Positions 4,956-6,035 of a DNA stretch of 39,898 bases are shown here, piece by piece. Position 1 is the stretch's first letter. Every line of letters starts with the position of its first letter. The notes under the pieces were generated by a model. The model was not told where the DNA came from, ran no database searches, and saw nothing but the letters and a program-made list of their open reading frames with translations. The DNA is from Vicinamibacteria bacterium (GTDB lineage Bacteria; Acidobacteriota; Vicinamibacteria; Vicinamibacterales; UBA8438). The translations under genes were made by a program, and so were the position numbers. The stretch is from assembly GCA_022821235.1 (NCBI GenBank), contig JAJEEA010000448.1:1-39898 (forward strand), read 5' to 3'.

Positions 4956-6035
4956 ATGAAGATCACACGTATCGGAACGCTCTGCCTGATGCTCGCGCTG
5001 GGAGCGGCTTCGACCGCATCGGCGCAGCCACTGCCCGATGTCGACGGGCTCGGACCCCAGGTCGGCGACGTCGTGCCGTCCTTCTCGCTCCCCGACCAGA
5101 CCGGCGCGGCGCGGGACATCGACTCGCTGATGGGGCCGGCCGGGCTGATGCTGGTGTTCAGCCGCTCGGCCGACTGGTGACCGTACTGCAAGACGCAGCT
5201 CGTGGAGCTGCAAAGCCGCCATGACGAGCTCCAGGACCAGGGCCTCGGCGTCGCCGTCGTCACCTACGACCCGGTCGCGACCCTCGCCGCGTTCGCGGAC
5301 GCCCGCGGCATCGAGATACCGCTGCTGTCCGACGAGGGCTCGGCGACCATCCGGGAATACGGCCTCCTGAACCACGAGATGGACCCGGCCCGCGCGCCCG
5401 AGGAGCGGCGCGAGATGATGCGCCGGCTCTACGGCATCCCCCATCCCGGCACGTTCATGCTGGACGCGACGGGCCGCGTGACCGCGCGCTTCTTCGAGGC
5501 GGCGTACCAGGAGCGCTCCACGGTGTCGAGCATCGCCGTCCGCCTCGGGGACGCGATGCCCGGGGCCCCGGACCGGGCCGCGACCCGCGTCGACACCGAC
5601 CACCTCGAGGCCCTCGTCTGGGCCACCGACGACGTGGTCGCGCCGGGCAACCGCCTGTCGTTCGTGGTCGACGTGACCCCGAAGACCGACATGCACGTCT
5701 ACGCGCCCGGCGACCACGGCTACCAGGTGATCCGCCTGCGCCTGACCGCGCCCGACTTCCTGCGGAGCCACGAGGTGACCTACCCGGCCTCGGAGATGTA
5801 CCACTTCGAGCCCCTCGACGAGACGGTGGAGGTCTACGAGCAGCCGTTCCGGCTCGTGCAGGACGTGACCATCCCGATGCGCCGCGACATCGACGCGCTC
5901 GCCTCGGAGCCCGACGCGACCCTGCGGGTCGAGGGGGTGCTGGAGTACCAGGCGTGCGACCACGAGATCTGCTACCTGCCGGCGGAGGCGCCGCTGAGCT
6001 GGGAGCTCGCGTGGCGCCCGCTCGTGCGGGACTGA
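4956..6035 (+). CDS. Redoxin (AhpC/TSA-like) plus DsbD-alpha-like domain protein; candidate selenoprotein with Sec at the in-frame TGA 5178-5180
   Basis: 4956-5177 (signal peptide ... LMLVFSRSADW) and 5181-6035 (PYCKTQLVELQSRHDELQ...) are in the same frame, separated only by TGA at the position of the expected redox Cys (CPYC -> UPYC); C-terminal YQACDHEICYLP resembles a DsbD N-terminal domain. Confidence 0.85.
5195..5211 (+). promoter_or_regulatory. Putative bacterial SECIS hairpin
   Basis: GCAGCTC-GTG-GAGCTGC: perfect 7-bp stem, 3-nt apical loop starting with G, loop about 21 nt after TGA 5178-5180. Confidence 0.72.

Follow-up and report, generated by a model that had tools for sequence, protein, structure and literature searches.

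Ribosomes of selenium-using bacteria read certain UGA codons as selenocysteine (Sec) instead of stop. In this study, we analysed 39.9 kb of DNA from a member of the Vicinamibacteria (Acidobacteriota; contig JAJEEA010000448.1, hereafter the window), in which a forward-strand gene at 4956-6035 contains an in-frame TGA (5178-5180) followed by a short hairpin (5195-5211). Comparison with homologous genes leads us to conclude, with a probability of about 0.95, that this hairpin is a genuine bacterial Sec insertion sequence (bSECIS) element directing Sec insertion at the UGA. The gene would then encode a 359-aa selenoprotein that joins an AhpC/TSA domain to a DsbD_N-like domain. An original prediction made from the letters of the window had read the hairpin in this way, and that interpretation is now supported by hairpin conservation, codon resampling, a compensatory change, and the presence of Sec machinery.

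Direct reading places CCGTACTGCAAGAC between the TGA and the hairpin GCAGCTC-GTG-GAGCTGC, whose arms (5195-5201 and 5205-5211) form a perfect 7-bp stem around a 3-nt loop, GUG (5202-5204), that starts with G and then U. The hairpin lies 15-31 nt downstream of the UGA, with a spacing of 21 nt from the TGA to the apical loop, and the peptide encoded across it is TQLVELQ; stem, G-first loop, spacing, and peptide are all as first described. The bSECIS model of bSECISearch specifies a stem of 4-16 bp, an apical loop of 3-9 nt, a G in the first two loop positions, a UGA-to-loop distance of 16-37 nt, and a minimum free energy (MFE) of at most -7.5 kcal/mol (PMC13188914, section 5). The hairpin fits all of these sequence and structure rules, as had been anticipated, and is the MFE fold of 5178-5217 at -11.6 kcal/mol. 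Moreover, it follows a predicted Sec codon, and the genome encodes tRNA-Sec, SelA, SelB, and SelD. With the fold restricted to +12 to +48 from the TGA, which leaves out nucleotides likely to be inside the ribosome, the hairpin had a probability of 0.90. On its own, however, the hairpin is weak evidence, because rule-passing hairpins follow 123 of the 673 TGA triplets on both strands of the window (18%) and because QLVELQ tends to encode this palindrome. Perfect hairpins with a 7-bp stem and a 3-nt loop occur 23 times in the window, so a single one does not exceed chance. The bSECIS rules by themselves are therefore not specific in GC-rich DNA and comparative evidence is needed; the significance of this hairpin rests on its conservation across homologues, not on the single sequence.

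Homologues were gathered by scanning genome contigs and 162 genomes of the same order, and by fetching 80 further loci by position. The site is contained in 166 loci, 144 of them distinct. Among the distinct homologues, the aligned codon is TGA in 95 and a cysteine (Cys) codon, TGC or TGT, in 49, and no other codon was seen. The most distant TGA genes share 33-35% identity with the window protein. The window genome (G000) itself has four TGA genes, C343 and three further paralogues, C543 (L160), C533 (L169), and C378 (L170), which share its TGA and hairpin; in C533 and C378 the loop has the form GGUC. On a tree made with a fast method, which has several long branches and served only for counting changes, nine exchanges between TGA and Cys are needed, at least five of them forced by well-supported branches. 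These homologues refute the notion that the TGA is a mutation or a sequencing error in a decayed gene with a chance hairpin behind it. It is true that ordinary open reading frame (ORF) calling yields two pieces, one ending at 5180 and the other starting at 5202. Nevertheless, the same TGA recurs in 95 distinct genes spread over many genera, the frame is open on either side of it, and Cys is the sole alternative; we assign gene decay a vanishingly small probability. Two loci deserve separate mention. For L101 (G107), a match with two in-frame TGAs was reported. The record of L038 (CALQBJ020000168.1) is titled as a Bifidobacterium breve metagenome-assembled genome and holds an Acidobacteriota-type homologue with a site region matching that of G020 (L156), a member of the order; this record is probably mislabelled or contaminated.

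Conservation of the hairpin follows the TGA codon. In the TGA set, stems are in register and comprise 7 bp in 77 genes and 6 bp in 17, the remaining gene containing an N, whereas most Cys homologues retain 2-4 bp and few reach 6 bp or more. The bSECIS model fits 94 of the 95 TGA genes versus 3 of the 49 Cys genes, with a family median MFE of -10.1 kcal/mol. The original prediction had named a lack of hairpin conservation among TGA-containing homologues as one outcome that would refute it; the opposite was observed, the hairpin being kept down to about 30% protein identity. This pattern has to be weighed against the possibility that the hairpin merely reflects the coding sequence, given that codons for QLVELQ in GC-rich DNA spell CAGCT...AGCTG on their own; the TGA might then still encode Sec, with the signal for SelB located elsewhere. 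In line with such an origin, a few Cys homologues carry a stem, and the palindrome has one other occurrence in the genome (C35), outside this TGA context. When each observed peptide was re-encoded with codons drawn from these same genes (2000 draws), coding alone produced a stem of at least 6 bp in 25.5 +/- 4.3 of the 94 readable TGA genes (about 27%; maximum 42), but all 94 have one. In addition, the TGA set shows no codon but CAG at +6, GAG at +9, and CTG at +10. Elsewhere in the same genes, by comparison, GAA supplies 19% of the codons for Glu, and CTG only 44% of those for Leu. Codon entropy is lower at the hairpin codons than at other conserved columns (p = 0.002). The expected constraint on codon choice is thus present, with the synonymous positions of the stem fixed. 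The hairpin peptide, too, is better conserved in TGA genes than where Cys occupies the site, which is what a constraint imposed by the RNA would predict. Rfam searches at gathering and permissive thresholds returned no relevant match, and no other conserved structure was found in the region. Based on the resampling excess and the fixed synonymous positions, a coding by-product is strongly disfavoured and, in our judgement, very improbable. A further preference concerns the Gln codon at +11 (5211-5213), which overlaps the 3' end of the stem and is CAA in 75 of 93 TGA genes, versus 161 of the 1360 Gln codons elsewhere in these genes (12%; CAG 88%). The stem does not require CAA at this position; the preference may represent an additional signal component or a way to avoid mispairing with the upstream CTGCA.

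The distribution of the Sec machinery matches that of the element. The window genome encodes a tRNA-Sec with anticodon UCA, SelA, SelD, and a SelB with C-terminal winged helices (SelB-wing domains), the part of known SelB proteins that binds SECIS elements. An exact pattern of TGA, 14 nt, and the hairpin was found in 78 of the 162 genomes of the order, and the reversed control gave none; the matches listed all start with TGACC, as in the family with the fused DsbD_N-like domain. Of these 78 genomes, 65 have SelB. The other 13, mostly fragmented or incomplete assemblies, show SelA and/or tRNA-Sec (in one case a partial SelA match only). The element is present too in Acidobacteriota outside the order. 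Conversely, neither SelB nor tRNA-Sec was found in the ten Cys-only genomes, nine of which also lack a SelA match. One of the ten (G093), in which searches for tRNA-Sec, SelA, and SelB gave nothing, has a homologue (L151) with an intact 7-bp hairpin behind TGC; this hairpin is plausibly a relic SECIS left by a change from Sec to Cys. These data bear on whether the TGA could encode a different amino acid through suppression or a code change, independently of the Sec machinery. The identity of the inserted residue is inferred, which leaves room for this reading. Nonetheless, only Cys replaces the TGA residue in homologues, and the machinery is present in the element-bearing genomes whereas tRNA-Sec and SelB are missing from the Cys-only ones. 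The gene's own stop is a normal TGA (6033-6035), and therefore TGA still terminates elsewhere. On these three grounds we reject a code change as extremely unlikely.

The apex of the hairpin also carries a signature of pairing. Its five positions (CGTGG in the window) read CGUGG, GGUCG, CGUCG, CGUUG or, once, CGUGC in the TGA set, where the loop GU is invariant and position 1 always has a possible Watson-Crick partner at position 4 or 5. Of 59 distinct sequences, 35 have C-G and 14 have G-C at positions 1 and 4, and the other 10 pair the C with the next G. The combination of CTG and GTG, which allows no such pair, is absent from TGA genes, though each codon is common there. Hence, the search for covariation in homologues that had been proposed does reveal a compensatory change, at the loop-closing pair.

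Several observations count against a SECIS function, or temper the evidence for it. The original prediction had proposed folding 5178-5225; over that length a competing structure wins (-14.4 kcal/mol), and the hairpin is the MFE fold of the shorter segment described above. Moreover, the single-sequence fold is not significant (z-scores of -0.8 to -1.4), as dinucleotide shuffles fold about equally well. The loop-pair exchange amounts to few independent events, because the Leu codon changed only about four times on the tree; Fisher's p = 1e-11 ignores this phylogeny, and a test of independent pairs, with just 3-4 switches, has low power. True covariation in the stem is a single event, in which G-C became C-G at the outermost pair (L149). 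The other stem positions are invariant and so can show no covariation. A SelA match was found in one of the Cys-only genomes (G099). Finally, unlike the SECIS of E. coli fdhF, the family stem is an uninterrupted 6-7 bp without the bulged U17 that contacts SelB in fdhF. On the other hand, the invariant apical GU of the family corresponds to G23/U24 of fdhF, where G23 is a SelB contact. The GGUC loop, seen here as a variant form, occurs in fdhF too.

Altogether, a SECIS function would imply the following course of events. At a ribosome arriving at UGA 5178-5180, SelB carrying GTP and Sec-tRNA-Sec(UCA) would bind the downstream hairpin via its C-terminal winged helices and read the GU of the apical loop. 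Sec would then be delivered at the UGA in competition with termination by release factors. The residue in question is position 75, in the motif U-P-Y-C, and the resolving Cys78 (TGC, 5187-5189) is invariant in the TGA set. Both belong to the AhpC/TSA (thioredoxin-fold) domain (residues 36-177, 5061-5486; PF00578, 91 bits, E 7e-26). The DsbD_N-like domain (residues 230-343, 5643-5984; PF11412, 30.9 bits against a cutoff of 25) contains Cys334 (5955-5957) and Cys339 (5970-5972), likewise both invariant. An AlphaFold2 model of the protein is confident, with a mean pLDDT (predicted local distance difference test) of 88; among PDB structures it is best matched by peroxiredoxins and by proteins of the ResA type, which cover the first domain. 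In the model, Sec lies within SADW-U-PYC immediately ahead of helix 76-87, and the redox residue of this fold usually sits just before such a helix. The N terminus looks like a signal peptide by eye, and the protein is probably exported. The product is probably a peroxiredoxin (Prx)-like enzyme, either a thiol-disulfide oxidoreductase or a peroxidase, whose active site is UPYC; the Cys pair of its own fused DsbD_N-like domain may recycle it. Elsewhere in the window, two similar long ORFs on the same strand (1629-3638 and 10574-12586; 669 and 670 aa) resemble pyrroloquinoline quinone-dependent dehydrogenases by eye.

Prx-like thiol:disulfide oxidoreductases with a UxxC motif (PF00578) are a known class of selenoproteins (PMC1794560, PMC2398784). 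The present family shares with them the AhpC/TSA fold, the UxxC motif, here UPYC, and the existence of Cys homologues, here with CPYC. It differs in its C-terminal DsbD_N-like fusion with a conserved Cys pair and in having up to four element-bearing paralogues per genome. It also falls below every NCBIfam cutoff; the SelL-related redox protein model NF040769 scores 41 bits against a cutoff of 120. Prx-like selenoproteins fused to domains that bear Cys are already on record. We found no description of a multi-copy Acidobacteriota branch with DsbD_N in the open-access literature, which is weak evidence of absence. The mechanism and the kind of protein are thus known, while the family is apparently a new, unnamed Acidobacteriota branch of Prx-like UxxC selenoproteins. 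Its hairpin departs from the bSECIS consensus in the conserved CAA on the 3' side. It is conceivable, though we consider it rather unlikely, that the family uses an extended SECIS of its own, in which the stem is fixed at 6 bp, a mini-pair that can be either C-G or G-C closes the GU, and CAA flanks the 3' side. Such an element would be read by a co-adapted Acidobacteriota SelB and be so constrained that it fixes QLVELQ across the paralogues.

These results bring to light a family of selenoproteins, represented in the sampled order by as many as four element-bearing copies in one genome, which ORF calling cuts in two and which has no name in NCBIfam. The family also offers a natural experiment on SECIS evolution, in which near-identical hairpins persist in paralogues only about 30% alike, Sec and Cys have been exchanged repeatedly, and one relic-like hairpin remains behind a Cys codon.
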